A DNA stretch of 64,000 nucleotides. It comes from Herpetosiphonaceae bacterium. Lineage in GTDB: Bacteria > Chloroflexota > Chloroflexia > Chloroflexales > Kallotenuaceae. This document shows positions 48,927 through 64,000 of this stretch, piece after piece. The notes under the pieces are model-generated. The model ran no database searches and was not told the DNA's origin. It was given only the letters and a program-made list of their open reading frames with translations. A program made the position numbers and the translations under genes. Position 1 is the stretch's first letter. Each line of letters begins with the position of its first letter. The stretch covers positions 1 to 64,000 of the forward strand of contig JACDGP010000012.1 in the NCBI GenBank assembly GCA_013821605.1. Reading direction: 5' to 3'.

Positions 48927-50273
48927 ATGACCATCTCGGACCTTTCCCGACAAGATATTCTTGACCTTTCACGTGAAACCACGCTCTATGAGTGGACTGC
49001 CCAGAGCGCCATGAAGCCGCTCGTGATCGATCACGCCTCCGGCATCTACTTTTGGGATGTTGATGGCAAACGCTACATGGATTTCAACTCGCAGTTGATG
49101 TGCGTCAATATTGGCCATGGCGATAAACGCGTTATCGACGCCGTGAAAGCCCAGATGGACCAGTTGTGCTATGTTGCGCCCACGGTCGCTACCACGGCCG
49201 TGCGTGCCGAGCTTGGTCGCTTGCTCAAGGAGATCACGCCCGGCAATCTCAGCAAAGCCTTCTTTACGAACGGTGGTGCTGAGGCCAATGAGAATGCGAT
49301 CAAGATCGCCCGCATGTTCACGGGGCGCAACAAAATCATCGCGCGCTACCGTTCGTATCATGGCGCGACGGCTGGTGCGATGACCCTCACCGGTGATCCT
49401 CGCCGTTGGGCTGCTGAGCCGGGTATCCCCGGTGTCGTGCGGGCCATGGACCCCTACCACTACCGCTGCCGCTGGTGTGGCGATAAGCCCGCCTGTACCA
49501 TGGACTGTCTCAATAATATCGAAGATGTCATCATGTTCGAGGGGCCGCAGACCATTGCGGCAGTGATTGTGGAGTCGGTTGTTGGTACCAACGGCATCAT
49601 TATTCCGCCCGACGGCTATATGCAGGGGCTGCGCGACCTATGTACCAAGCATGGCATTTTGCTGATCTGCGACGAAGTCATGAGTGGCTTCGGCCGCACC
49701 GGCGAGTGGTTCGCAGTCAATCACTGGGGCATCACCCCCGATATCATGACCATGGCAAAAGGCCTCACCTCGGCCTATGTGCCGCTCGGTGCGACCATGG
49801 TCACCGACACGATCGCCGACTATTTTGAAGACCATCCTTTGTATGCCGGCTTGACCTACAACGCCCATGCCGTCGGCTGCGCGGCGGCGGTGGCCTGCAT
49901 CAACGTCTACAAAGAAGACCATCTGATCGAGAATGCTCGTACGCTTGGCGTGGTGCTCAAAAGCGAACTTGAGCAGCTCAAGGAGCGCCATCCATCGGTC
50001 GGCGATGTGCGTGCGATCGGTTTGTTTAGCCTGGTTGAACTGGTCAAGAACCGTGAAACGCGTGAACCCATGACGCCCTATAATCCCAAAGCGAACGAAA
50101 TGGGACCGATGCCGCAGTTCAACGCCTTTTTGCGCGAACATGGCCTCTTCACCTTTGTGCGCTGGAACAATTTCTTTGTCAATCCGCCGCTCTGTATTAA
50201 CGAGCAACAACTGCGCGAAGGGCTTGCGATTATCGATCAGGCCCTAGAAATTACCGACCGCGCGGTGGCTTAA
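48927..50273 (+). CDS. Class III aminotransferase (omega-amino acid type)
   Basis: 448 residues from the ATG at 48927, 16 bases after hydA. PLP-enzyme signatures: FFTNGGAEANENAIKIAR, YRSYHGATAGAMTLTGDPR, ICDEVMSGFGRTGEWFA and ITMAKGLTSAYVPLG-like text with the Schiff-base lysine. A cysteine-rich loop (HYRCRWCGDKPACTMDCLN) is typical of one subgroup that includes taurine and beta-alanine transaminases. In this operon it should convert beta-alanine or 3-aminoisobutyrate to the semialdehyde used by the next enzyme. Confidence 0.9.
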   Translation: MTISDLSRQDILDLSRETTLYEWTAQSAMKPLVIDHASGIYFWDVDGKRYMDFNSQLMCVNIGHGDKRVIDAVKAQMDQLCYVAPTVATTAVRAELGRLLKEITPGNLSKAFFTNGGAEANENAIKIARMFTGRNKIIARYRSYHGATAGAMTLTGDPRRWAAEPGIPGVVRAMDPYHYRCRWCGDKPACTMDCLNNIEDVIMFEGPQTIAAVIVESVVGTNGIIIPPDGYMQGLRDLCTKHGILLICDEVMSGFGRTGEWFAVNHWGITPDIMTMAKGLTSAYVPLGATMVTDTIADYFEDHPLYAGLTYNAHAVGCAAAVACINVYKEDHLIENARTLGVVLKSELEQLKERHPSVGDVRAIGLFSLVELVKNRETREPMTPYNPKANEMGPMPQFNAFLREHGLFTFVRWNNFFVNPPLCINEQQLREGLAIIDQALEITDRAVA

Positions 50274-50333
50274 ACTGCAAGCACTCTGTGGCATAATGGG
50301 GCCACAAGCGATAAGCTCAACGGGGAGAATCAT

Positions 50334-51812
50334 ATGATACAGGATGGACAGTTACTTAACTTTGTTAATGGCACCTGGCAGCGTTCGGCTGCCGGCGAGT
50401 TTCTTGATGTTCACAATCCGGCGACCACCGAAACGATTGTCCGGGTCCCGCTTTCTGAGCGCGCCGAGGTTGATGCTGTCGCCCAGGCCGCTAGCGTCGC
50501 CTGGGAGAGTTGGCGCCGTACCCCGCCGACTGAGCGGATCAGCTACCTCTTTAAGTTCCGCAGCCTGCTCGAAGCACACTTCGATGAGATCGCCCGCCTG
50601 ATTACCCAGGAGTGCGGCAAGACCCTCACTGAAGCACGCGCCGAGATGCGCCGGGCTGTCGAGAATGTCGAGGTCGCCTGCGGTATCCCGATGATGATGC
50701 AAGGTACCAACGTCGAAGATATTGCCTCGGGCATCGATGAACTCATGATCCGCCAACCGGTTGGCGTCGTCGCCGCCATTACGCCTTTCAACTTTCCCGG
50801 CATGGTACCGCTCTGGTTCTTGCCCTATGCGCTTGCTTGCGGTAACTGCTTCATTATTAAGCCCTCTGAGAAGACGCCCATCACCATGGGTCGCATTGTC
50901 GAGCTGCTGGTCGAGACCGGCCTGCCCTCTGGCGTCGTCAGCCTGGTTAATGGTGGCAAAGAAGCGGTTGACGCGCTGCTCGATCATCCCCTCATCCGCG
51001 CGATCTCATTCGTCGGCTCAACTCCCGTCGCCCGCTACGTGTATAGCCGCGCCGCTGCCAACGGTAAGCGCGCCCAATGCCAAGGTGGTGCGAAAAATCC
51101 GGTGATTGTGCTGCCCGATGCTGATATGGATATGACAACCCGCATCGTGACCGATGCGGCCTTTGGTTGTGCCGGCCAGCGTTGCTTAGCCGCCTCGGTC
51201 GCAATCACCGTGGGGGAGGCGCGCAATGTTTTTGCCGAGCAGATCGCTGATGCTGCTGCGTCGCGCAAGGTTGGCTACGGCCTAGACGACGGTATCGAAA
51301 TGGGTGCTGTCATCACCCCGCAGAGCCGCAGCAACATCGAAATGCTGATCGGCAAGGGCGCCAGCGAAGGTGCCGAGGTCATGGTTGATGGCCGCAATCC
51401 GGCGATTGCCGGCTACGAGCACGGCAACTTCGTCCGCCCCACGATCCTGCAGAATGTCGATCCCCGTAGCGAGATCGCCCGCACCGAGATTTTCGGGCCG
51501 GTCCTGAGCCTGATCAACGTCCAGACCATCGAAGAAGCCATTGCGGTGGTAAATGCTGGGGCCTACGGCAATATGGCCTGCTTGTTCACAAGTAGCGGGG
51601 CCGCTGCACGCCAGTTCCGCTACGAGGCTCGTGCCGGCAACATTGGTATCAACGTTGGTGTGGCAGCACCGATGGCCTTCTTCCCGTTCTCAGGTTGGAA
51701 AGACAGCTTCTTCGGCGATCTGCATGCCCAAGGCAGTGATGCCGTTGAGTTTTATACCGAAAAGAAAATCGTCGTTGAGCGCTGGCCCAAAGAATGGTCG
51801 CGCCACTTCTAG
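50334..51812 (+). CDS. mmsA: CoA-acylating methylmalonate-semialdehyde dehydrogenase
   Basis: Oxidises malonate or methylmalonate semialdehyde to acetyl- or propionyl-CoA with loss of CO2. 492 residues. [56 protein letters not shown] and the active cysteine in [15 protein letters not shown] separate this family from other aldehyde dehydrogenases. GGGGAG 6 bases before the ATG. Last gene of the operon, with a hairpin terminator behind it. Confidence 0.95.
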
Positions 51813-51848
51813 CCACAGGTCTGCCGTTCCTTACGGCGCTAGCTTCCC

Positions 51849-51873
51849 AAGGAGCAGGTATTCCCTGCTCCTT
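51849..51873 (+). terminator. Terminator of the pyrimidine/hydantoin operon
   Basis: AAGGAGCAGG and CCTGCTCCTT form perfect 10-base arms with a 5-base loop, 37 bases after the mmsA stop. The sequence after it (ATCATTACC) is only mildly T-rich. Confidence 0.65.
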
Positions 51874-52148
51874 ATCATTACCCTCTCAATTTTCCTCAGC
51901 AACAGCCTTCTGACCAGTTTTTGTGGTGCTTCATATAAACTGGTGCATCCAGCTATGTGTATTCGAACGAATATAGACCAGACAGCGAAATGAAATACTC
52001 ATTAAGCTGTGTGCTACCGGACCGGATGCACAATCAATTCCACGTAATCGAATCGATACGGACCGCATTGCGCAGTGCAGCACGTAATGAAGCGAAAACG
52101 TCGGCAAACTACAACTTGACTATTCAATACCTGCTGAGGAGTTCTATT
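51874..52148. other. Leader region of the surface protein gene
   Basis: About 275 bases with no supported gene. An in-frame extension of the next gene to 51957 exists, but the signal peptide and ribosome site place the start at 52149. TATTCG-AA-CGAATA at 51960-51973 is a short inverted repeat that could be an operator. No clear -35/-10 pair was found. Confidence 0.4.
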
Positions 52149-53465
52149 ATGCGGACCAAACTGTCGTTTTTGTTGGCCATCATGGTCATCGTGTTAGGAT
52201 TTGGCGCGGCGCGCCCCAGTTACGCTGCACCACAAAGTGCAACGGCCGGCGACCTCCGCGGCTTGCTCGATACGCAATTAGGTGAGCACGTACTGCTTGC
52301 TGCGTCAGCAACCGATGCAGCCTTGAACGGCCGCACCGATGAATTCAAGGCTGCTGCCGCATCGCTTGATGCCAATTCGGTCGCCTTGTCGAAGTCCATC
52401 GGTTCGGTCTACGGCACGGATGCTGAAAACGCCTTCCTACCCCTATGGCGCAAACACATTGGTTTCTTCGTTGACTATACCCAAGCTGTAGCGGCGAAGG
52501 ACGCGGCCAAGAAAGATATGGCCACCAAGAACCTGATCCAGTACGGCCAGGACTTTGGTGCCTTCATCAACTCGGCCAACCCCAACCTGCCCAAGCAGGC
52601 CGTCGCCGACCTCCTGGCTCCGCACGTCATGACACTGAACGCCGTTATTGATGCCCAGGCCGTCAAGGACTATCCCACCGTCTATACCGACCTCCGGAAA
52701 GCCTATACTCATATGGATATGGTAGCCAGCGCCCTGGCTGGTGGCATTGCTAAGCAGTTTCCCGACAAATTCACCGGTGCCGCCGACTCCTCGGCCAGTG
52801 GTTTGCGCTCGGCGCTGACCAATCTGCTCAATGAGCATGTCTATCTGGCGGCTGATGCCACGAATGCAGCCTTAGGTGGCCGCGACACCGAGTTCAAAGC
52901 AGCGGCTGCTGCACTCGATGGCAACTCGGTTGACCTCTCCAAGGCTATCGGCTCGGTCTACGGCACGGATGCTGAAAACGCCTTCTTGCCCCTTTGGCGC
53001 AAGCACATTGGTTTCTTCGTTGACTATACTCAAGGCGTCGCTACGAAAGACCAGGCCAAGAAAGATATGGCTACCAAGAACCTGATCCAGTACGGCCAGG
53101 ACTTCGGTGCCTTCATCAACTCGGCCAACCCCAACTTGCCCAAGCAGGCCGTCGCCGACCTCCTTGCCGCCCACGTTACAACCCTCAACGCCGTCATTGA
53201 TGCCCAAGGCAGCAAAGACTACACCGGCGCTTACACCAACCTGCGAGCCGCCTATGCTCACATGCCGATGGTCGCCAACGCTCTGACCGACGGCATCGTC
53301 AAGCAATTCTCGACCAAGTTCACCGATGCTGGCACGATCATGATGGCCATGCCGAACACTGGTGCCGAGAGCAACAGCGGGCCGTACATTCTAGCCTTCG
53401 CGACGGGGCTGCTGCTTCTGGTGACTGGTATGGGTCTCCGCCGCCGTTTCGCCTCGCTCAAGTAA
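52149..53465 (+). CDS. Duplicated helical surface protein with MPNTG-type anchor
   Basis: 438 residues from an ATG with GAGGAG upstream. A signal peptide (LSFLLAIMVIVLGFGAARPSYA) is followed by two copies of a domain of about 180 residues. Each starts LL(D/N)-x-x-LxEHVxLAA and contains GSVYGTDAENAFLPLWRKHI and NLIQYGQDFGAFINSANP, identical in both. The C-terminus has MPNTG, a hydrophobic helix and RRRF, the layout of sortase substrates. I do not recognise the domain; conserved His, Trp, Tyr and Asp residues and all-helical character would fit a metal- or cofactor-binding four-helix bundle, but this is a guess. A cupredoxin lipoprotein follows. Confidence 0.75.
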   Translation: MRTKLSFLLAIMVIVLGFGAARPSYAAPQSATAGDLRGLLDTQLGEHVLLAASATDAALNGRTDEFKAAAASLDANSVALSKSIGSVYGTDAENAFLPLWRKHIGFFVDYTQAVAAKDAAKKDMATKNLIQYGQDFGAFINSANPNLPKQAVADLLAPHVMTLNAVIDAQAVKDYPTVYTDLRKAYTHMDMVASALAGGIAKQFPDKFTGAADSSASGLRSALTNLLNEHVYLAADATNAALGGRDTEFKAAAAALDGNSVDLSKAIGSVYGTDAENAFLPLWRKHIGFFVDYTQGVATKDQAKKDMATKNLIQYGQDFGAFINSANPNLPKQAVADLLAAHVTTLNAVIDAQGSKDYTGAYTNLRAAYAHMPMVANALTDGIVKQFSTKFTDAGTIMMAMPNTGAESNSGPYILAFATGLLLLVTGMGLRRRFASLK

Positions 53466-53509
53466 ACAGCGACACACATCACTCTACTCAAATCGAACGG
53501 AAATACTGC

Positions 53510-53538
53510 ATGGGGCTGGAGTCAAACTCCGGCCCCAT
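53510..53538 (+). terminator. Hairpin between the surface protein and the cupredoxin gene
   Basis: ATGGGGCTGGAGT and ACTCCGGCCCCAT pair over 13 bases with one mismatch and a 3-base loop. It lies 45 bases after the stop and 27 before the next start, with no T-run, so it may be a partial terminator or a stability element. Confidence 0.5.
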
Positions 53539-53564
53539 CTAATACCCCGGAAAAGGTGCTCATT

Positions 53565-54218
53565 ATGCCTATACGAAGCAACATTTCGCCCCGGCTACTC
53601 ATGTATCCAGTCATCGGTCTACTCCTAGCCGCATGCGGAGCGACGCCAGCCACGACCAATCAGGTCACGGCAACCAGCATCGCGCAGGCAGCTGTAACCC
53701 CGTCTGCCACTGCTATGCCTTCAGCTACCCCGAGCGTCGCGCCAACATCGACCGACGCTCCGACCGTCACTGCAGCTCCAACAGATACAATGACCCCGGC
53801 AGCAACCACTGCACCAACAGGCACGAGTGCCCCTACCACTACCATGACCACGCCACCAATGCCAACCGCTGTTCCGGTCCAACCTACCCCAACAGGCGTT
53901 CCGGCTGCAGCTGCACCGGCGCCAACCACTCGCCCGGCTCCTGCTAGTGCAGCAGCGAAGGTTCTGGCTGAGATCAAGCTCTTCCAGTTCAAGCCGAACG
54001 TGCTTGAGATCAAAGCCGGTACAACTGTGGTGTGGACCAATGGTGACGCTATCGAGCATAGCGTCACAAGCGGCACCCCGCCCACAGCGAACGGAGCCTT
54101 TGACTCAGGCTTTTTCACTCAGGGTCAAAGTTTTACCTTTACCTTTACCAAACCCGGCACCTACTCCTACTTCTGTATGCGCCATAATTCGATGACAGGC
54201 ACTATTGTAGTAAAATAG
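53565..54218 (+). CDS. Cupredoxin (plastocyanin-like) lipoprotein
   Basis: 217 residues from the ATG at 53565. Lipobox LLAAC (Cys24), then about 90 residues of Thr/Pro/Ala stalk, then a blue-copper domain. The ligands are visible as the His in AIEHSVTSG, the Cys in YSYFCMRH, the following His and the Met in NSMTG. LEIKAGTTVVWTNGD is the typical strand before the first ligand. It should be a membrane-tethered extracellular electron carrier. Its neighbour, a duplicated helical surface protein, may be a functional partner. Confidence 0.9.
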   Translation: MPIRSNISPRLLMYPVIGLLLAACGATPATTNQVTATSIAQAAVTPSATAMPSATPSVAPTSTDAPTVTAAPTDTMTPAATTAPTGTSAPTTTMTTPPMPTAVPVQPTPTGVPAAAAPAPTTRPAPASAAAKVLAEIKLFQFKPNVLEIKAGTTVVWTNGDAIEHSVTSGTPPTANGAFDSGFFTQGQSFTFTFTKPGTYSYFCMRHNSMTGTIVVK

Positions 54219-54369
54219 GAACATCACCTGGAGTACTGCCTCCCGATCTCCGTGCCCTCTATACCATGCTTGTTTGCGTAGCCGATAGGCCGTTGCGAGG
54301 GCACGTTCTCCATCATGGTCGCTACTGCGGTTCTCGATATCAAGGATGGCCAAGGAGGAAGCACAACCG

Positions 54370-54639
54370 TCAGTCGCTTTCGGGCATCTCGTCTCGGCGG
54401 GGTGGTCTGACCCACTGCTTAGTCCGTTCCTCGGATGCACGAAACGCCAAGAAGTTCTTGCGGGCTTGCCAAAGGTGAACCGAATTCGGACCTCGTGGTC
54501 GCTCCGTTGCGGGTTGACCGTAGACTTCCGTTTCATCGTCATCTTCCCAGAAGCACACCGGACAGATATCATACCCGCCACGTTCGTCAAGGGTATAGTG
54601 ACCACAGCAAGGACACTGCTGTTTTTGTCGTTCAGTCAT
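54370..54639 (-). CDS. CPCC family cysteine-rich protein
   Basis: 89 residues with CPCCGHYTLDERGGYDICPVCFWEDD at the N-terminus, the signature of the Cys-rich CPCC family, where two CxxC pairs probably bind zinc. The rest is charged and helical (HLWQARKNFLAFRASEERT). Members are often found as small orphan genes and in toxin-immunity neighbourhoods; here it stands alone. Confidence 0.85.
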   Translation of the reverse strand: MTERQKQQCPCCGHYTLDERGGYDICPVCFWEDDDETEVYGQPATERPRGPNSVHLWQARKNFLAFRASEERTKQWVRPPRRDEMPESD

Positions 54640-54782
54640 CGTTTCCTGCTTAGTTCAAGGGTCCTTTTCATCAACCCTGACGAGAAAACGGGAAGTGTAG
54701 CACGTGACGTGTTACTGTGATACAAGTATCTTCCGAGGACGCCTACTGTTGAGAAGCCGGGTAATCGACGGCAGCAAGCGCA

Positions 54783-55250
54783 TCATTGTAGGCAGGAGCG
54801 TATGCGATCAACCATTGACTCATACTCTGGATCGCTCAATAGCACCTTCTGAGGAGCCTCTAACGTTACCCACACTGGGTAGCCCCATCGAGGGTCATTT
54901 TCATACCGCAGGATGATATGCCAATGCACGTGGGGAATGCCATTCCCCAAGCTGGCATAGTTCATCAAGTTAGGCCGAAACGCCTCGTGGACTGCCTTCG
55001 CTGCGTGATGTAGATCATCTGTGAAAGCTTTATATTCCTCAGATGTGAGTTGCTCGATCCCTGTCGCATGGCGGGGATCAAAGATCAATACGCTGTAGCC
55101 ATGAAATCGCTGATCACGATCAAGATATAAGGTTGAGACCGTAAGCTGGGCAATCTCGATCTTATAGGGGTCTGTCTTGGGACGTGGAGCACAAAGCGGA
55201 CAACGAGCACCGTTCATCCAGTTCCAAAACTCTGTCCAGGACGATCCCAT
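54783..55250 (-). CDS. HIT family nucleotide hydrolase-like protein
   Basis: 155 residues from the ATG at 55250, which has GGAGGG 6 bases upstream. A CPLC pair near the N-terminus and the histidine triad HVHWHIILRYENDPRWG are visible, with FHGYSVLIFDPRHATGIEQL as the preceding strand-helix. HIT proteins hydrolyse or transfer nucleotides from phosphoramidates and dinucleotides. The substrate is unknown. It is divergent from the second ABC operon. Confidence 0.88.
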   Translation of the reverse strand: MGSSWTEFWNWMNGARCPLCAPRPKTDPYKIEIAQLTVSTLYLDRDQRFHGYSVLIFDPRHATGIEQLTSEEYKAFTDDLHHAAKAVHEAFRPNLMNYASLGNGIPHVHWHIILRYENDPRWGYPVWVTLEAPQKVLLSDPEYESMVDRIRSCLQ

Positions 55251-55531
55251 CACCTTCCCTCCACGAGCCTGCTTTGCCCATGCTAAAAGCCAACAGTCGA
55301 TACCATCAATTATCGACACCAAGTATAGCAGCATGCTGAAAAGAACAGAACGACTGTTTTTCAGACGCGAGGCGTCGCTCGTTTAATGACCATGCCATTT
55401 AGTGGTATATTGTGAAAGTTTTCCCTACCTCTACCTAAGACGTCTTATGCGGAAGGTAGGATCAAGAATGGATAGCAATTCCTGGGTCGAAGCGATACGA
55501 TATAGTTGATTGTAATCAGGAGTTTCACTCT

Positions 55532-56638
55532 ATGAAACGTGTAACAGGGCATCGTAAATACTTAGCCTACATCGTGGTTATCCTCACTTCGCTGCTCGCC
55601 GCCTGCGGCGCTCCCGCCAGTCAAACTTCCACCGGCAGCCAAAGCGCTGCGCCGTCGGCAAGCACATCCGGCGTGAGTGCAAGTGCTGCCAGCACCACCT
55701 CTGCTGCGAGTGCAGGGCCGCTAACGACTATTCGGCTTGGCTATGTGCCGGTCATGATTTTTGCGCCCTTGTTCGTCGGCGTCGAACGTGGTTATTTCAA
55801 GCAGCAAGGCTTGGACGTCAAGCTCACGCCGGTACAAGGTGGCAGCGATTCGGTCGTGCAGTTGGCCGCCGGTAATTTCGATGTGGCGGTCGGCGGCGTA
55901 GGGGCCGGGCTGTTGAATGCGGCCAATCGGGGCGTCAAGTTTACAATTGTCGCACCGATGCATAGCGAACGACCACCCTTAACGACACCACTGGTGATCA
56001 GTGCCAAACGAACTGGTGAAATTAAGAGCGTTCAAGATCTGAAGGGCAAGAAGGTTGCGATTAACGCTACCGGTGCTGCCACGGAGTATTGGTTGGCTCA
56101 GGCGTTGGCGAAGGCCGGCTTGACCTTTAACGATATCAAGCTCACCTCGCTGGCCTTCCGCGATGTTCCGGCTGCCTTGGATAGCGGTGCCCTTGATGCA
56201 GCAATGCTCGGTGATCCGCTTGCGACGATTAATAAAGACAAAAACATCGTTTCGATTCTAAGTAATGACTTCATTAACGGCTTCACCTCGACCTTCGTGT
56301 ATATGGGTGATCCCATTCTGACCAAGAATCCGCAAGCGGCCGCCGGCTTTATGCGTGCTTATCTCAAGGCCTGTCGTGACCTCCAGGGCAACTATATGAA
56401 CCAAGATATCGCGAAGATTATCGAAAAGTACACACAGGTGCCGGCAGCGGAAATCCTGCGTAGCGCACCCGCCCAATACGATGCCAAGGGCCAGATACCG
56501 CTCGCTGATATCAATACCCTGCAGGATTACTTCTTGAAGCGTGGTGAACTAGAATATAAGACGCCGATCGACATGAGCAAGTTTGTCAACACGAGCCTGG
56601 CGACACAGGCCGCTGCTGACCTTGACCATAATCCATAA
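55532..56638 (+). CDS. ABC substrate-binding lipoprotein, NMT1/SsuA-like
   Basis: 368 residues. Lipoprotein signal with LLAAC (Cys25), a Ser/Ala/Thr stalk, then the binding domain: IRLGYVPVMIFAPLFVGVERGYFKQ, VQLAAGNFDVAVGGVGAGLLN, VQDLKGKKVAINATGAATEYW and ALDAAMLGDPLATI. First gene of a three-gene importer operon. The ligand is unknown; this family covers sulfonates, nitrate, pyrimidines and aromatic compounds. The proximity of tyrosine-degradation genes on the opposite strand does not prove a link. Confidence 0.92.
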   Translation: MKRVTGHRKYLAYIVVILTSLLAACGAPASQTSTGSQSAAPSASTSGVSASAASTTSAASAGPLTTIRLGYVPVMIFAPLFVGVERGYFKQQGLDVKLTPVQGGSDSVVQLAAGNFDVAVGGVGAGLLNAANRGVKFTIVAPMHSERPPLTTPLVISAKRTGEIKSVQDLKGKKVAINATGAATEYWLAQALAKAGLTFNDIKLTSLAFRDVPAALDSGALDAAMLGDPLATINKDKNIVSILSNDFINGFTSTFVYMGDPILTKNPQAAAGFMRAYLKACRDLQGNYMNQDIAKIIEKYTQVPAAEILRSAPAQYDAKGQIPLADINTLQDYFLKRGELEYKTPIDMSKFVNTSLATQAAADLDHNP

Positions 56639-56668
56639 CGAGCCCGGTGGCGAAAGCGAATAAGCGTA

Positions 56669-57469
56669 ATGACACCGAAGATTAATATTGATTCGCTACA
56701 GGTCATCTATCCGGGCCGTGGTCGAAACATGCCGGTTGAAGCTCTGGCAGGGGTATCACTCGCAATTGCCGATGGTGAGTTGGTGTGTGTCGTTGGGCCG
56801 AGCGGCTGTGGTAAGACGACGCTGCTCCGCATCTTAGCCGACCTGGAGCAACCTACCACAGGCCAGGCGATCATTGCACCCGATGAATCGAACCGCCCTC
56901 TGAAAGGGATGGTTTTTCAGGGCGCGGGCTTGTTTCCCTGGATGACCGTAGCCCAGAACGTAGCCTATGGTCTCCAGCTGCGGGGCGTAGCACCGCGTGA
57001 GCGTCTGACCCGCGCTCAACACTGGATCACCACGATGGGCCTTGAACGTTTCGCACAGTCATACCCGGCCCAGCTTTCCGGTGGCATGCAGCAGCGTGCC
57101 GGGCTGGCGCGCGCCTTTACCTATGATCCACAGGTCCTGCTGATGGACGAGCCCTTCGGTGCGCTTGATGCCCAGACCCGCCTCATCCTACAAGCCACGC
57201 TGCTCGATCTCTGGGAACAGGCGCGCAAGACCGTTGTATTTGTGACGCATAGTATCGAAGAAGCGCTGACGCTGGGCGACCGGGTGGTGCTGATGTCGGC
57301 GCGCCCCGGTCGCATCTTACATGAGGTCATGGTGCCCTTTGCTCGCCCGCGCGATCCGATCACGCTGCGCACCGACCCACGCTTCAGCGCGCTCTTCGCT
57401 GAGGTCTGGGGTGTCCTGCGCGCCGAGGTCGAGCACAGCAGGACGGCCGAGTTGGAGATGGCACCATGA
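56669..57469 (+). CDS. ABC transporter ATP-binding protein
   Basis: 266 residues. Walker A GPSGCGKTTLLRIL, Q-loop MVFQGAGLFPWMTV, signature LSGGMQQRAGLARAF, Walker B LLMDEPFGALDAQTRL and H-loop FVTHSIEEALTLGDRVVLM. It ends with a 4-base overlap into the permease-MenA fusion gene, so translation is coupled. Confidence 0.95.
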   Translation: MTPKINIDSLQVIYPGRGRNMPVEALAGVSLAIADGELVCVVGPSGCGKTTLLRILADLEQPTTGQAIIAPDESNRPLKGMVFQGAGLFPWMTVAQNVAYGLQLRGVAPRERLTRAQHWITTMGLERFAQSYPAQLSGGMQQRAGLARAFTYDPQVLLMDEPFGALDAQTRLILQATLLDLWEQARKTVVFVTHSIEEALTLGDRVVLMSARPGRILHEVMVPFARPRDPITLRTDPRFSALFAEVWGVLRAEVEHSRTAELEMAP

Positions 57470-59145
57470 AGCGCACGCGCACCTTATCCGTTATTGGACC
57501 ACTCGTGCTCCTCCTGCTCTGGGAAGCTGCGGTCCGCTTCGGCTGGATCAACCGTGCCTTCTTGCCCTCTCCCTCAGAGGTGTTTCATAGTCTGGGTGAG
57601 CTGATTGCGAGTGGGCAGCTGGCGCGCGACGTGTCGGTCAGCCTCATACGCATCGGTGCGGGCTTTGTGCTGGGTGCGTTGCCTGCCGTCGGCCTCGGGT
57701 TGTTAATGGGTGTGAGTCCGGTCGCGCGGGCTTTGATTCAGCCTTTCGCGGCTGCGCTTTATCCGGTGCCCAAGATTGCGCTGCTGCCGTTGATCATCGT
57801 TGTGCTCGGGCTGGGCGAGACGAGCAAGATCGCCACAATTGCCATCAGTGTCTTTTTCCTGGTGGTGCTGAATGTGTCGGCCAGCGTGCTCCAGGTTGAT
57901 AACCATTACTTTGAGGTCGCCCGCAGCTTTGGTGCGCGACCCCGTGATCTGTTCTGGACGGTCGCGCTTCCTGCCAGCTTGCCGGGCATCATGAATAGCC
58001 TTAAGCTCGGCATGGGCTTCGCCCTGACGTTGATCGTGGGCGTCGAATTTGTCGGCGCCAACGAAGGCATCGGTTGGCTGATCTGGAATGCCTACGAAGT
58101 GTATGCGATCGACCGCATGCTGGCCGGGTTGGTCGTGATTGCTCTGCTGGGCTGGCTCCTGACGGTAGCCTTAGATGAGCTAGAATACCTATTAGTGCCG
58201 TGGCAAAAACCGAGTCGGCGCATCAAGGAGGCGCGTGTGGGCAAAGGCATGGGTGTGTGGTGGAATGCGATCCGAATTTGGAGCTACACGGCGGCCACTA
58301 TTCCGGTCGTGTTAGGCGGCAGCATCGCGGCCTATGAGGGTCGCTTCCACCATCCCTGGTGGCTGCTGCTCGCCCTGATCGGTTCGATTGCGATTCAAGC
58401 CGGAACCAATCTGGTCAACGACTATTATGATTACAAAAAAGGCGCCGATGGCCCGCAGTCGCTAGGCAACGGCGGCTCGATCCGGCGTGGTGAGCTTACG
58501 CCCCGCCAAACGCTAGGGGGTGGCCTGCTAGCCTTTACCATCGGCTCGGTTATCGGGCTCTATCTGGTCTACGTGACCGGCCCGTTCATTTTCTGGCTCG
58601 GCTTGTTCAGCGTGCTGTGTGGCTACTTTTATACGGCGGGTCCCTTCGCACTGGCCTATGTTGGCCTGGGCGAGATCGCCGTCTTTATTTTCATGGGACC
58701 GGTGATGGTCATCGGCTCCTACTATGTGCAAACGCAACATGTCTCCGGGCTCGCGCTGCTGGCGTCGCTGCCGGTGGCCTGCCTGGTTGCTGCCATCCTA
58801 CATGCGAATAACCTGCGCGACCTCGACAGCGATCGACAGATCGGCAAGCGCACGCTGGCGACGTTGTTCGGGCGTGCCGGGGCCAATCTGGAATACTATG
58901 TGCTGGTCGGTGGGACCTATATTTCGCTGGCGGTGTTGGTGGTGCTCGGCCTCGTGCCCTGGCTGACGCTGATCAGCCTCCTGACGCTGCCGTTGGCAAT
59001 CCGCCTGATGCGCATCGTGGCGAATGAACATGAGCCTATTAAGCTCCAGCCCGTACTACGCCTCACTGGGAAGCTGCATATGCAATTTGGTGCGCTGTTG
59101 GTCTTAGGCTGGGTTGCGGCGTGGGCCTGGAGCACCTTTGGCTAA
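57466..59145 (+). CDS. Fusion of ABC permease and MenA-type prenyltransferase
   Basis: 559 residues in one frame. Residues 1-250 are a complete NitT/TauT permease: start LLLLLWEAAVRFGWINRAFLP, coupling loop YFEVARSFGARPRDLFWTV, end LEYLLVPWQKPSRR. Residues about 262-559 are a complete MenA/UbiA enzyme. NLVNDYYDYKKGADGPQ is the first Asp-rich motif, NNLRDLDSDRQIGKRTLAT the second, with eight or so helices. MenA attaches a polyprenyl chain to 1,4-dihydroxy-2-naphthoate in menaquinone synthesis. At the joint, AAGGAGG (58225-58231) lies 5 bases ahead of an in-frame GTG (58237), so the enzyme could also be made separately. There is no stop between the halves. The motifs fit MenA better than homogentisate prenyltransferase. 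Confidence 0.88.
   Translation: MKRTRTLSVIGPLVLLLLWEAAVRFGWINRAFLPSPSEVFHSLGELIASGQLARDVSVSLIRIGAGFVLGALPAVGLGLLMGVSPVARALIQPFAAALYPVPKIALLPLIIVVLGLGETSKIATIAISVFFLVVLNVSASVLQVDNHYFEVARSFGARPRDLFWTVALPASLPGIMNSLKLGMGFALTLIVGVEFVGANEGIGWLIWNAYEVYAIDRMLAGLVVIALLGWLLTVALDELEYLLVPWQKPSRRIKEARVGKGMGVWWNAIRIWSYTAATIPVVLGGSIAAYEGRFHHPWWLLLALIGSIAIQAGTNLVNDYYDYKKGADGPQSLGNGGSIRRGELTPRQTLGGGLLAFTIGSVIGLYLVYVTGPFIFWLGLFSVLCGYFYTAGPFALAYVGLGEIAVFIFMGPVMVIGSYYVQTQHVSGLALLASLPVACLVAAILHANNLRDLDSDRQIGKRTLATLFGRAGANLEYYVLVGGTYISLAVLVVLGLVPWLTLISLLTLPLAIRLMRIVANEHEPIKLQPVLRLTGKLHMQFGALLVLGWVAAWAWSTFG
58225..58239 (+). promoter_or_regulatory. Internal ribosome binding site and GTG start at the permease-MenA joint
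   Basis: AAGGAGG, five bases, then GTG in the fusion frame (codon 258); an ATG follows at 58249, which is 17 bases from the Shine-Dalgarno and so less likely. The site falls exactly in the hydrophilic linker, where the start of an independent MenA gene is expected. Confidence 0.7.
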
Positions 59146-59151
59146 GTCAGG

Positions 59152-60195
59152 TCACGTGCTATAAACGATCCTGTTCTTAAGGATGCCTAGTCCGGTTACT
59201 TCGAGCTCGATGATATCATCGGGCTCGAGCCAGCCACCTACGGCCTCAGGGGTGAGTTCGAGAATACAGCCGCTGCCAACGGTGCCCGAACCGATCACAT
59301 CGCCCGGATATAACGTTGCATCGCGCGAGGCCTGCGCGATCAACTGACCCCACCCGTAGTGCATCGTGTCGAGGTTGCCTTGCGAGTAGGTCCGGCCGTT
59401 CACCCGCGCCACCATGTCGAGCTGGAAGTTGGTCCCATCATTGGTGATGTAATCTTCAAGCTCGTCGGGCGTGACCAACATCGGTCCGAGCGCCGTCGCA
59501 AAATCTTTGCCCTTCGCCGGACCCATGCCCACACTCATCTCCTCTTTTTGCAGGTCACGCGCCGAAAAGTCATTCATGATCATGAAGCCCGCGATGTAGT
59601 CCCACACCTCACTCGGGTCGATATCGCGCCCTTCACGCCCGATAACACAGGCGACTTCGAGCTCATAATCGAGCTGCTCCGTGTGTGGCAACAGCAGCGG
59701 TTGGTCAGGACCGATGATCGCTTGATGGTTGCCAAAATAAAAAACCGGCTGCTTATACCAGAACGGTGGTATCGCGCGGCCCTTGGGGCGGGTATTGGCA
59801 ACATGTTGCTCGAAGGCAAAGAAGTCACGCAACGAGCGTGGTCGGGGCAAAGGTGCTAGCAGTTTCACGGCCGATCGGGGCAGCAGGAGTTCTGCCCCCC
59901 CGATCGACATGGCTCCGGCTAAATCGACGGAGTCCGGATCACCATCATCCTGCACAACATCCACCGCCCCGCCGATCTGTTCCATCACGGCATTAACGAT
60001 TTCGTTGGCCGCGTCTAAGCCAAGTCCCTCGTCACCTCCTTCGAGCAGCCGTAGCATATCCAGGTGCGTATCCTGCATATCTTCAAAGACCAGTGGCAAC
60101 GCGGCTTGCAGATCGACGACGCCATACGGCAGCAACACACCGGCGCGTGCTTCGCTGGCCCGCTCGAAGGATTGGCGAAAAGTGACAAGTTTCAT
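59152..60195 (-). CDS. Fumarylacetoacetate hydrolase family protein
   Basis: 347 residues. Core signatures: LDYELEVACVIGREGRDI with acidic metal ligands, FMIMNDFSARDLQKEEMSVG, GPAKGKDFATALGPMLVTPDE and GDVIGSGTVGSGC. The last enzyme of tyrosine breakdown, fumarylacetoacetase, belongs here, as do related hydratases and decarboxylases. Placement 1 base after the hpd gene supports the tyrosine pathway. Its stop lies 6 bases from the stop of the opposing fusion gene. Confidence 0.88.
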   Translation of the reverse strand: MKLVTFRQSFERASEARAGVLLPYGVVDLQAALPLVFEDMQDTHLDMLRLLEGGDEGLGLDAANEIVNAVMEQIGGAVDVVQDDGDPDSVDLAGAMSIGGAELLLPRSAVKLLAPLPRPRSLRDFFAFEQHVANTRPKGRAIPPFWYKQPVFYFGNHQAIIGPDQPLLLPHTEQLDYELEVACVIGREGRDIDPSEVWDYIAGFMIMNDFSARDLQKEEMSVGMGPAKGKDFATALGPMLVTPDELEDYITNDGTNFQLDMVARVNGRTYSQGNLDTMHYGWGQLIAQASRDATLYPGDVIGSGTVGSGCILELTPEAVGGWLEPDDIIELEVTGLGILKNRIVYST

Positions 60196-61323
60196 CTACA
60201 GATTACCGCGCAACTCTTGCTCACGCTCGATAGCCTGGAACAGCGCCTTGAAGTTGCCGTTACCGAAGCCCCGCGCCCCCTTGCGCTGAATAACCTCGAT
60301 AAAAACGGTTGGTCGATCCTGGAGCGGCTTGGTGAAGATTTGGAGCAAATAGCCTTCGTCGTCGCGATCAACCAGGATGTTGAGATCGCGGATCACCGTC
60401 ATATCCTCGTCGATGTGCCCGATCCGTTCGCCGAGGTCCTCATAATACGCTCCCGGTGTGCGTAGGAACTCAACACCATTGGCTTTGAGTTGGCGGACCG
60501 TCTTGATGATGTCGGAGGTCGTGAGCGCCAGATGCTGGGCTCCGGGACCGCGATAGAACTCAAGATACTCGTCGATCTGCGATTTGCGGCGGCCCTCCGC
60601 CGGCTCGTTGATCGGGAACTTAATGCGACCTGTGCCGTTTTGGACCACCTTGGACATCAAGGCCGAATACTCAGTCGAAATATCGTCGTCGGTGAACTGT
60701 TGCAGCTGGCGGAAACCTAGGGCGGTATTATAAAAATCGACCCACTCGTCCATCTTGCCGAGTTCGACATTGCCGACGATATGATCGATCGAGGCAAAGC
60801 CCACCTCGGGTGCCGGGGCCGGGTTTTGGATGCGGTTATACTGCGGCGCGAAAGCGCCGGTGTAGTCGCCGCGCTGGATAAAGGAGTGTACCGTGTCGCC
60901 GTAGGTCGCGATCGTCGCCTTAACGATCTGGCCTTTTTTACCTTCCAGTACGGTCGGCTCCATCACCGGTCGCGCACCCCGTGACACGGTCGCTTCAAAG
61001 GCGGCCCGCGCGTCGTCAACCAGCAAGGCAATATCTTTGACGCCGTCGCCATGCAGCTTCACATGCTCGGCAATCGGGCTATCGGGACTAAGTGCCGAGG
61101 TCAGGACCAAGCGAATCGTGCGCTGCTCAAGGACGAACGAACAGCGGTCGCGCACGCCGGTCTCAAGACCGGCATAAGCCAGGGGGGTAAAACCATAGGC
61201 CGTCCGGTAGTAATGGGCGGCTTGCCGGGCATTGCCGACATAAAACTCGACATAGTCAATACCCTTGAGCTGCAGGAAATCGCCTTCCTGAGCTCGGGTC
61301 ATTTCGCGTTCCGTGACTGCCAT
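60196..61323 (-). CDS. hpd: 4-hydroxyphenylpyruvate dioxygenase
   Basis: Converts 4-hydroxyphenylpyruvate to homogentisate with non-haem iron. 375 residues in two vicinal-oxygen-chelate halves. The iron ligands are the His of SIDHIVGNVELGKMDEWVDFY, the His of GPGAQHLALTTSDI and the Glu of PTVFIEVIQRKGARGFG; the last segment is diagnostic. GGAGG 10 bases before the ATG. It forms a two-gene operon with the fumarylacetoacetate hydrolase gene. Homogentisate dioxygenase and the isomerase needed between them are not in the window. Confidence 0.95.
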   Translation of the reverse strand: MAVTEREMTRAQEGDFLQLKGIDYVEFYVGNARQAAHYYRTAYGFTPLAYAGLETGVRDRCSFVLEQRTIRLVLTSALSPDSPIAEHVKLHGDGVKDIALLVDDARAAFEATVSRGARPVMEPTVLEGKKGQIVKATIATYGDTVHSFIQRGDYTGAFAPQYNRIQNPAPAPEVGFASIDHIVGNVELGKMDEWVDFYNTALGFRQLQQFTDDDISTEYSALMSKVVQNGTGRIKFPINEPAEGRRKSQIDEYLEFYRGPGAQHLALTTSDIIKTVRQLKANGVEFLRTPGAYYEDLGERIGHIDEDMTVIRDLNILVDRDDEGYLLQIFTKPLQDRPTVFIEVIQRKGARGFGNGNFKALFQAIEREQELRGNL

Positions 61324-61493
61324 AGTCAGGGCACCTCCATATAGTGTTTAGTCTATTCTACCATCCTTGGCCGCTGCTAATGCCCGGACCAGCCTTCAGG
61401 CGCTTGTGTCATGTTTTGCGCTCCGTGCTTGCGGCTGATTGTAGCAGCAACGGAATGAGCCTACAATGAAGGTAACGGAGGAAGGAAACAAGC

Positions 61494-62543
61494 TTGTTCA
61501 TTCATTTGCGGCGGCTGCGGCGGCTGCTAAACCGAGTCGCGCTGGGCCTCCTGCTGCTGCTAGGGGTCCTGGCAGCCGGCACAGTCGGCTACCACCTGAT
61601 CGAGGGCTGGGCGTGGGGCGAGGCGGCCTATGTGACGCTGCTGATCATCTCGACGCTTGGCTTCGGGCGCTTGGCACCGGCAACGCCGGCCGGTCAACTC
61701 TTGACCAGCGCCTTGATCATCTCGGGCGTGGGCACGCTCTTTTATCTGTTGAGTAATGTTGCTGAAACATTTATTGAGACCTCGCTAGGTCTAACAAAGG
61801 TACGGCGTATGGAACGCGAGATCGCGAAGCTGCGCGACCACTATATCATCTGTGGCTTAGGACGCGTGGGCCGGCGCGCGGCTCAGGAACTATCGGCACA
61901 AGACAAGTGCTTCGTGACGATCGACGCGGACGAAGCGACTGTGGCCGAGGCCCGTGATCGTGGTTGGCCCGCGATCCAAGGCGATGCTACCCACGACGAC
62001 ATCTTAAAAACTGCCGGTATCGAGCGTGCCAGTGGGCTGTTAGTGACCACCGCCTCGGATGCCACCAACGTGTTTATTACGCTCGCCGCCCGCATCTATA
62101 ACGAGCATATTGTGATCGTGGCTCGGGCGAATGAGGATGGCAGCGAGCCCAAGCTCGAAAAGGCGGGCGCAAACAAGGTGATCGCACCCGAGGCGATTGG
62201 CGGCCAGCGTATGGTTGGCCTTGTGTTGCGACCGGGTGCGACCGAGGTGATCGATACCCTGCTGCACGCCGACGACCAGGACAACTGGCTTGAACAAACA
62301 ACCGTATCTTCTGACTCAGACCTCCGTGGCCAGTCGCTCGGCGCTGCCCGGCTGGAAGATCGTACCGGTGTGCGCGTGATCGCCATTCGCCGGGCCGACG
62401 GTACCCTGGTGACCAACCCGCAGGGCGACGAGCTGATCCAGGAGCGCGACATCTTGGTCTGCGTCGGTGCGCGGGACCAATTTAGTGAGCTCGTGGCGCT
62501 CGCTCAGCCCAATCACCCTACCAACAGCCTTGCCAAAGCATAG
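61494..62543 (+). CDS. Two-helix potassium-channel-like protein with RCK domain
   Basis: 349 residues. Two membrane helices flank a pore loop with TLGFGRLAP at residues 54-62, where most channels have T-V-G-Y-G-D. A cytosolic RCK/TrkA-N domain follows (YIICGLGRVGRRAAQEL, IQGDATHDDILKTAGIERA) and a TrkA-C domain at the end (LRGQSLGAARLEDRTGVRVI). The layout is that of MthK-like gated channels. The start is TTG with AAGGA about 10 bases upstream. Selectivity for potassium is uncertain because of the filter change. Confidence 0.85.
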   Translation: MFIHLRRLRRLLNRVALGLLLLLGVLAAGTVGYHLIEGWAWGEAAYVTLLIISTLGFGRLAPATPAGQLLTSALIISGVGTLFYLLSNVAETFIETSLGLTKVRRMEREIAKLRDHYIICGLGRVGRRAAQELSAQDKCFVTIDADEATVAEARDRGWPAIQGDATHDDILKTAGIERASGLLVTTASDATNVFITLAARIYNEHIVIVARANEDGSEPKLEKAGANKVIAPEAIGGQRMVGLVLRPGATEVIDTLLHADDQDNWLEQTTVSSDSDLRGQSLGAARLEDRTGVRVIAIRRADGTLVTNPQGDELIQERDILVCVGARDQFSELVALAQPNHPTNSLAKA

Positions 62544-62550
62544 CTCCGGC

Positions 62551-63597
62551 TCACAGCAACGTCGTCTGAATCTCGTCGATAGGGATCGGAGCCGGACGGT
62601 CGAAATACGGCACGCCTAGGTGGTCGTAGGCGCGGCGGGTCGCGATACGCCCACGCGGGGTCCGTTGCAGCATACCAAGCTGAATCAAGAACGGCTCGTA
62701 CACATCCTCGACAGCATCAACCTCTTCGGCGGTCGCAGCGGCTAGAGTTGACAGGCCGACCGGCCCGCCGTTGAATAGCTCCACGATCGCTCGCAAGACG
62801 CGGCGGTCGTTTTCATCCAAGCCGAGTTGGTCGATCTCCAGTCGATCCAAAGCTTCACGCGCCACGGCCAAGGTCACGTGATCGCCCGCTTTGACCTGCG
62901 CGAAATCCCTGACACGCTTAAGGATGCGGTTGGCGATGCGCGGAGTGCCGCGCGAACGATGCGCCAGTTCCATGGAGGCATCGGGATCGATCTTCGTTTT
63001 GAGGATCTTCGCTGTGCGCGTGACGATCTGCTCCATTGCCTCAGGCGGGTAAAACTCCAGGCGGTAGACCGAGCCAAAGCGGTCGCGCAGCGGCGAGGTC
63101 AGCAGGGCCAGCCGTGTGGTCGCGCCCACGACCGTGAACTTGGGCAGCTTCAACCGCAACGCGCGTGCCGCCGGTCCTTTGCCGACCACAATATCCAGCA
63201 CCGAATCTTCCATCGCCGGGTACAACACCTCCTCGACCGCCCGCTGCAACCGGTGGACCTCGTCGATGAACAAGATGTCATCTTTTTTGAGGTTCGTCAG
63301 GATCGCGGCGAGGTCGCCCGCCCGCTCGATCGCCGGGCCGGAGGTAATGCGGATATTAACACCCATCTCGTTGGCAACGATCTGCGATAGTGTCGTTTTG
63401 CCCAGCCCGGGGGGCCCGTAGAACAACAAATGGTCCAGCGGCTCATTGCGCCCCTTGGCTGCACTGATCGCGATCTCAAGATTATTAATAACCTTGTCCT
63501 GCCCGATATACTCGGCCAGGCGCTTTGGTCGCAAACTTTTATCTACCGTCGATTCTTCGGGATGCTCGGCAGGGTCAACAATACGCTGTTCGTCCAT
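62551..63597 (-). CDS. ruvB: Holliday junction branch migration helicase RuvB
   Basis: Hexameric motor of RuvAB in recombination. 348 residues. [20 protein letters not shown], Walker [18 protein letters not shown], Walker [19 protein letters not shown], sensor [19 protein letters not shown] and the C-terminal winged helix with [20 protein letters not shown]. Length and motifs are normal. RuvA and RuvC are not in the window. Confidence 0.97.
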
Positions 63598-63840
63598 AAT
63601 TCCTCGCTAGGAGTATTATACCATGCGAACATATGAGCGTAGGATCAGACCACATTTTCTGTAGACGGCGCGTATATTGTGTTGGCCATCTAGCATCCGC
63701 TTGATAGCATCATCAAGAGCTTGTATACTAGGTCGGCAAAGCTCGCTTGAGGACGTTGGCCTCGGCTGAGGAGTCGTGATGAATCCCTTCCTACGAATGG
63801 CTGAGCTCAACCGCTCGTCTAGTGCTCAACGAGGCTGAAT

Positions 63841-64000
63841 ATGCCAGAACGTGCTGAACTCCTTGAAGCCCTCCGCCATGCTGACCCAGATGTCCGTCGG
63901 CGTGCTGCTCGCGCGCTCGATCACTTGCCGCTCGATGAGCGAACGGTCGAAGCACTGATCGAGCTTGCTCGGCGGGAGACGATTCCGGCAGTGCGCAGTG
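63841..64000 (+). CDS. HEAT-repeat protein, N-terminal part (3' end outside the window)
   Basis: The frame starts at an ATG with GAGG 6 bases upstream and runs open to the window edge. ELLEALRHADPDVRRRAARAL and LIELARRETIPAVRS are consecutive HEAT or PBS-lyase-like helices. Such proteins are usually scaffolds; no specific role can be given from 53 residues. Confidence 0.75.
   Translation, partial: MPERAELLEALRHADPDVRRRAARALDHLPLDERTVEALIELARRETIPAVRS

Follow-up and report, generated by a model that had tools for sequence, protein, structure and literature searches.

A conserved ABC permease-MenA fusion in Chloroflexota is a candidate menaquinone-precursor importer

Introduction

Respiration and phototrophy both require a quinone. 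In the making of menaquinone, the substrate of the prenyltransferase MenA is 1,4-dihydroxy-2-naphthoate (DHNA). UBIAD1, the prenyltransferase of animal vitamin K salvage, also completes menaquinone from an acquired ring, with menadione as the ring that it prenylates. Uptake by metabolic trapping is familiar from the sugar phosphotransferase system (PTS) and the vectorial acylation of fatty acids, in which the compound is chemically altered at the membrane, so that uptake runs in one direction.

For bacteria that have only menA and menG, Ravcheev and Thiele suggested an import of DHNA, with transporters yet to be predicted and then tested (PMC4746308). DHNA-dependent lactic acid bacteria have kept the late menaquinone genes, lost the early ones and take the ring from neighbours (PMC4746308, PMC10746273), and a 2023 study of L. 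plantarum still had no identified route of DHNA uptake (PMC10746273). The absence of quinone pathways from many Chloroflexota was singled out as striking in a 2026 survey (PMC13386864). In this same phylum, RibXY of Chloroflexus, a NitT-type permease with an NMT1-like binding protein, imports a ring-containing vitamin, riboflavin, as shown by E. coli complementation (PMC4418817).

Here we describe an operon in a 64,000-nucleotide stretch of DNA from a Herpetosiphonaceae bacterium (the window), in which a NitT/TauT-type permease and MenA form one protein. Whereas the importer of the lactic acid bacteria is unidentified (PMC4746308, PMC10746273), the candidate here lies in the same chain as MenA. 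UBIAD1, in contrast, has no transporter domain. Compared with the PTS and vectorial acylation, the driver here would be an ABC importer and the chemical change a prenylation, both within one covalent chain. We know of no member of this transporter family with a known DHNA ligand that could serve for comparison. In the full-text literature searched, a scope that left out subscription journals and preprints, we found neither a fusion of this kind nor a DHNA importer described; priority is not proven.

Results

A permease and MenA share one uninterrupted reading frame

The operon and its parts lie on the forward strand of the window:

55532-56638 (+): substrate-binding lipoprotein, NMT1/THI5-like, SsuA/TauA superfamily, lipobox LAAC at residues 22-25 (Pfam NMT1, E 2e-24)
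56669-57469 (+): importer ATPase (Pfam ABC_tran, E 4e-29)
57466-59145 (+): permease-MenA fusion gene, 559 aa (Pfam, NCBIfam, relatives, AF2)
57466-58209 (+): permease half, residues 1-248, EAA loop around residues 148-175 (Pfam BPD_transp_1)
58210-58251 (+): linker, about residues 249-262 (alignment of 30 fusions)
58225-58239 (+): Shine-Dalgarno-like AAGGAGG (58225-58231) and in-frame GTG (58237-58239), a possible MenA-only start (sequence)
58252-59142 (+): MenA half, residues 263-559, with NxxND..D at 315-322 and NN.RD...D....KRTL at 448-464 (TIGR00751)

The fusion gene runs from ATG to TAA with zero internal stops. The initial annotation had read it as a complete NitT/TauT-type permease and a complete MenA in one stop-free frame, and the reading frame, Pfam and TIGR00751 all agree with that description. 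Pfam matches above the gathering cut-offs cover residues 75-246 in the permease half (BPD_transp_1, E 1e-24) and residues 279-517 in the MenA half (UbiA, E 1e-39). Like MenA of the UbiA superfamily, the latter passes the NCBIfam menA equivalog TIGR00751 (168.2 against a cut-off of 102.15) and has both aspartate-rich motifs and the nine-helix fold. It differs from MenA in carrying an N-terminal ABC permease and in falling below the narrower NCBIfam MenA equivalogs (NF004749, 249.7 against 277; NF004751, 240 against 264), cut-offs that the unfused relatives L106, L108, and L165 likewise fail to reach.

Both halves had also been said to keep their signature motifs, which the relatives bear out. 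MenA residues N315, N318, D322, N448, N449, R451, D452, D456, K461, R462, T463, and L464 are invariant in 30/30 fusions, and the EAA loop is conserved in the permease half of the fusion alignment. The linker between the halves varies in length, at about 15-30 residues across the 30 aligned fusions. Values of dN/dS were 0.03-0.21 for both halves and, by this sequence-based measure, both are under purifying selection.

The same fusion was present in about 30 Chloroflexota assemblies at 48-74% identity. Relatives in which the two genes are always separate would have refuted the fusion; instead, it recurs uninterrupted in many genomes of the same order at 60-74% identity. A sequencing or assembly error that deleted a stop codon has next to no chance of being the source: only the draft state of the genomes (most are draft assemblies) speaks for it, and it is refuted by independent assemblies from many projects, all of which read through the joint.

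The Shine-Dalgarno motif and GTG at the joint, from which the initial annotation suggested that MenA may also be translated alone, are both present. Most Chloroflexales fusions have AAGGAG (codons AAG GAG) a few bases 5' of an ATG or GTG at the joint, and 11/11 Lys-Glu pairs there are coded AAGGAG, against about 0.35 expected for each from codon usage. Because the sequences are related, this bias is only suggestive. The motif with a start at the joint was absent from the Anaerolineae/Caldilineae fusions; therefore, production of MenA on its own is not common to all fusions, although in the window's lineage it remains possible and unproven.

An AF2 model of the fusion chain had a mean pLDDT of 87 and a pTM of 0.58. 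Foldseek matched one half to CmpB/NrtB and the other to UBIAD1, the closest solved structure to the MenA half. Since the model is of a single chain and its pTM is 0.58, the placement of the two halves relative to each other is not established. Six membrane helices are expected for the permease family and nine for MenA. From the helix count and this family knowledge, we infer that the joint and the MenA active site lie on the cytoplasmic side, where the importer would release its substrate.

The operon encodes a complete importer

The fusion gene stands third in the operon, behind the binding lipoprotein and the ATPase, and the end of the ATPase gene overlaps the fusion's ATG as ATGA. With a BPD_transp_1 permease, an ABC ATPase and an NMT1-type binding protein, the NitT/TauT-type importer set is complete in one operon. 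Families and gene order are those of SsuABC, TauABC, and NrtABC/CmpABC; unlike in those importers, the permease is fused to an enzyme and meets no substrate equivalog cut-off (126, 125, and 85 bits for TauC, SsuC, and NtrB, against 342, 347, and 209).

These neighbours are conserved. The ATPase lies beside the fusion at 47-74% identity, and an orthologue of the binding protein is found upstream of most fusions (47-72% identity) and in the fusion genomes searched except G048, G062, and G055. In G048 and G062 the operon runs off the contig end, and G055 has futalosine genes. The arrangement varies among other lineages: Thermoflexales-type genomes have a fusion that stands alone, with binding protein and ATPase together at another locus; the binding protein adjoins menA in G137 and G109; and in G071 menA and an operon for binding protein, ATPase and permease are transcribed divergently. 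No other gene conserved next to the operon across lineages was found.

The AF2 model of the binding protein (pLDDT 82) had its best Foldseek matches in SsuA, with others in THI5, ThiY-like proteins and the PQQ-binding PqqT, and the ligand cannot be read from these predicted structural likenesses. In the part of the RibXY report available, RibXY orthologues carry an FMN riboswitch and no enzyme fusion is described for them (PMC4418817). The fusion operon differs on both counts: no FMN or TPP riboswitch was found in window positions 50000-64000 or in 10-11 related loci, and we rejected a riboswitch-regulated riboflavin or thiamine transporter on that ground.

Several further observations concern the surroundings of the operon and its relatives. 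Convergent with it at 59152-61323 (-) lie a fumarylacetoacetate-hydrolase-family gene and a 4-hydroxyphenylpyruvate dioxygenase gene (TIGR01263 over cut-off); a functional link was considered and discarded, as these genes are not conserved beside other fusions. A lipoprotein-like copper protein of the plastocyanin/azurin family is encoded at 53556-54218 (+) (Pfam Copper-bind) and is possibly an auracyanin-type electron carrier. The gene at 51957-53465 (+) encodes a 502-aa protein with two similar domain copies, a C-terminal membrane anchor and no Pfam match. A second copy of the binding protein occurs in G036, far from the operon (55% identity; L201:6259-7152 (-), G036:C199:27258-28193) and a few kb from a fumarylacetoacetate-hydrolase-like gene. 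The fusion of G055 (L093, G055:C288) has no adjoining binding protein or ATPase; the importer may be in decay there, or the contig may be mis-binned.

The fusion is widespread and fits a single origin

Of 60 relatives examined, 18 carried the fusion (58-74% identity); these are Chloroflexales and span three families. This count includes G037, where it is broken across two contigs; for G054 the fusion was assumed from a piece of the permease half at a contig end. A scan of 84,980 species genomes added fusions elsewhere in Chloroflexota at 48-61% identity, with those of Caldilineaceae, Litorilinea, Thermoflexales/Roseilinea, and others at 48-52%. Some of these records are the same genomes as among the 60 relatives, and G330 and G061, being one genome, were counted once. 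The fusion was confined to Chloroflexota among the genomes scanned, with two sequences titled otherwise (L044, L060) matching contigs of same-order genomes, and the plasmid collection held separate halves only.

Whether built from the permease half or from the MenA half, the tree separated 18 Chloroflexales rows from 12 Anaerolineae/Caldilineae rows among the fusions. In the MenA tree, all fused rows and the unfused G002 fell on one side of a branch with support 93 (not starred), and grouping the fused rows without G002 was rejected (p-AU 0.0011). For the permease, one clade of the fused rows and the unfused G046 permease was compatible with the data (p-AU 0.45), and exclusion of G046 was marginally rejected (p-AU 0.045). 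G002 and G046 both nest inside the fused clade. G002 has kept the fusion-type MenA and lost the permease and binding protein; G046 has kept the transporter and not the fused MenA; and both of these secondary splits sit in genomes with MenB and MenD. Taken together, the trees and p-AU tests fit one old fusion that was later split twice, a history reconstructed from sequence relationships. In G286, from the same class and another family or order, the four genes are unfused and the permease stop overlaps the menA start as ATGA, which is likely the pre-fusion arrangement.

Because of its age, conservation and single origin, the fusion cannot be dismissed as the simple loss of a stop codon within an operon that the initial annotation had allowed for, and the breadth of its distribution and the trees exclude a recent loss. 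We consider it very unlikely that neighbouring membrane-protein genes were joined by chance around a transporter of an unrelated sulfonate, nitrate, riboflavin, or pyrimidine. The permease and binding protein do resemble SsuABC, TauABC, and NrtABC in sequence, and NitT-type transporters handle many substrates. Yet the fusion has survived across several classes, unfused and other arrangements still put the transporter beside menA, the TauC, SsuC, and NtrB cut-offs are far from met, and the FMN or TPP riboswitch sought at the window and related loci is lacking. Moreover, both halves and the binding protein track the presence or absence of ring pathways, as described below.

Most fusion genomes lack a ring pathway and retain MenG

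Both ring pathways were missing (no MenB, no MqnC) from 28/30 fusion genomes. The two exceptions keep a ring pathway alongside the fusion: MenB was found in G053 only, as was MenD over the cut-off (29 of 30 fusion genomes tested), and MqnC over the cut-off in G055 only. Matches to the MqnA/MqnD model were limited to G055 and a contig-end fragment in G070, and were absent from the other fusion genomes. MenG/UbiE, by contrast with the missing pathways, exceeded its cut-off in 26/30; it was missing or partial in G042, G048, G052, and G062, which are incomplete or fragmented assemblies. The fusion thus meets what is asked of a proposed importer, namely occurrence with late menaquinone genes in genomes without ring pathways.

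Within the same order, a ring pathway was present in 2/18 fusion genomes against 22/23 genomes without an intact fusion (Fisher p 2e-8), and the association persisted with one entry per genus and state (Fisher p 0.001). No phylogenetic correction was made beyond this collapse by genus, and the group of 23 includes the split descendants G002 and G046. The only genome of that group without a clear ring pathway was G005 (80% complete). Genus g2 holds both states, with the fusion and no ring pathway in G001 and G003, and futalosine genes and no fusion in G004. MenD and MenB were together over their cut-offs in 19/54 genomes tested, and MqnC over its cut-off in five, G055 among them. In the phylum sample, neither MenB nor MqnC was found in G000, G007, G036, G200, G330, or G286, and G286, with its unfused operon, had no MenG over threshold. 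MenD matches below the cut-off were treated as other thiamine-diphosphate enzymes. Weak MqnC matches, scoring about 325-340 bits, were not counted. The frames that gave them are roughly 790-900 aa long (one is in G003) and, judged by size and score only, most likely encode the two-domain F420 enzyme FbiC.

The window's genome is 99.6% complete and lacks MenB, MenD over the cut-off, MqnC, and MqnA/D. Its four UbiA-family proteins are the fusion, heme o synthase, (bacterio)chlorophyll synthase, and decaprenyl-phosphate phosphoribosyltransferase. Other menA genes, a check that the initial annotation had called for, were not found there, leaving the fusion as the sole MenA, and none of the four was identified as MqnP-type. 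From the heme o and (bacterio)chlorophyll synthases, the organism is expected to respire and is probably phototrophic, so that a need for a quinone is expected.

With no MenB or futalosine enzymes, these genomes have no known route to DHNA or its isomer, and import of the ring is therefore the simplest reading. An undiscovered third pathway that makes the ring, with the importer supplying an early aromatic precursor, seems distinctly unlikely to us. Many Chloroflexota lineages lack recognised quinone pathways, undiscovered quinones have been allowed for (PMC13386864), and non-orthologous replacements are known in quinone pathways (PMC4746308); however, an early precursor would leave unexplained the direct link to MenA, which acts after ring completion, and the operon has no further neighbour that is conserved across lineages.

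Import of a different ring for MenA to prenylate (1,4-naphthoquinone, menadione, 1,4-dihydroxy-6-naphthoate, or a phylloquinone breakdown product) is unlikely, though less so than a third pathway. The binding-protein family is broad, with Foldseek matches to PqqT and to sulfonate and pyrimidine binders, and the nearest solved relative of the MenA half is the menadione-prenylating UBIAD1. Against this, retention of MenG favours an unmethylated ring, which DHNA is and menadione is not; the MenA half passes TIGR00751; and the window's genome encodes four UbiA proteins, none of which was identified as an MqnP-type enzyme.

The missing pathway alone is no proof of import by this operon, since many Chloroflexota have MenA without MenB, MqnC, or the fusion (for example G312, G275, G174, G238, G157, G257, G075, and G281). 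A phylum-wide rule that MenA without MenB implies the fusion failed on many Dehalococcoidia and other lineages of this kind. Such Chloroflexota could possibly import precursors by other transporters or have unrecognised ring pathways.

A proposed route from an imported ring to menaquinone

The fusion is real, old, and conserved, and its distribution fits a menaquinone-precursor importer coupled to MenA, a function that we predict with fair confidence and that is not demonstrated. Uptake of a menaquinone precursor coupled to prenylation, one of the possibilities raised by the initial annotation, gains support from conservation across classes, the unfused operon of G286, and above all the loss of both ring pathways in 28/30 fusion genomes that came with retention of MenG. 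We observed the gene and its conservation, the operon around it, the absence of ring pathways, and the retention of MenG. On these grounds, the operon at 55532-59145 probably encodes an ABC importer, coupled to MenA, that takes up DHNA or a naphthoate very close to it; the substrate is inferred, without biochemistry.

In the proposed mechanism, the lipoprotein would capture the ring precursor outside the cell (DHNA binding is inferred), and two permease halves with two ATPases, an inferred dimeric assembly, would drive it inward by an uptake that is likewise inferred. The MenA half on each permease would then prenylate the ring at the inner face of the same membrane; both DHNA prenylation and channelling between the halves remain inferences. 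Because prenylation makes the product lipid-soluble, it would be trapped as (demethyl)menaquinone, which MenG would methylate to menaquinone. The cell would in this way finish menaquinone from a ring made by other organisms. In Chloroflexales, translation from the internal start may additionally yield MenA as a separate protein.

With more reserve, we lean towards regarding the operon as the first identified menaquinone-precursor importer, one whose permease is covalently the enzyme that consumes its substrate, so that the ring passes from pore to prenyltransferase, and as defining, among phototrophic and other Chloroflexota alike, a way of life that depends on DHNA. It is a concrete candidate for the missing DHNA importer, with a named binding protein, a clear genotype, and splits that track the ring pathway, and it also bears on the Chloroflexota that lack quinone pathways. 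If the proposal is true, some Chloroflexota rely on neighbouring organisms to supply their electron-carrier ring, among them a bacterium with a gene for bacteriochlorophyll synthase. The transporter family would then be a marker of ring dependence and a lead for culturing (adding DHNA).

A different MenA fusion was seen in Dehalococcoidia-like Chloroflexota, where a luciferase-like (F420/flavin-dependent) monooxygenase is joined in frame to MenA. It is found at L168:6060-8225 (-) in G290, with Pfam Bac_luciferase and UbiA matches, and at L208 in G253, as judged by N-terminal sequence. The same luciferase-like fusion may account for the long MenA frames (700-800 aa) seen in several further genomes from the phylum sample.
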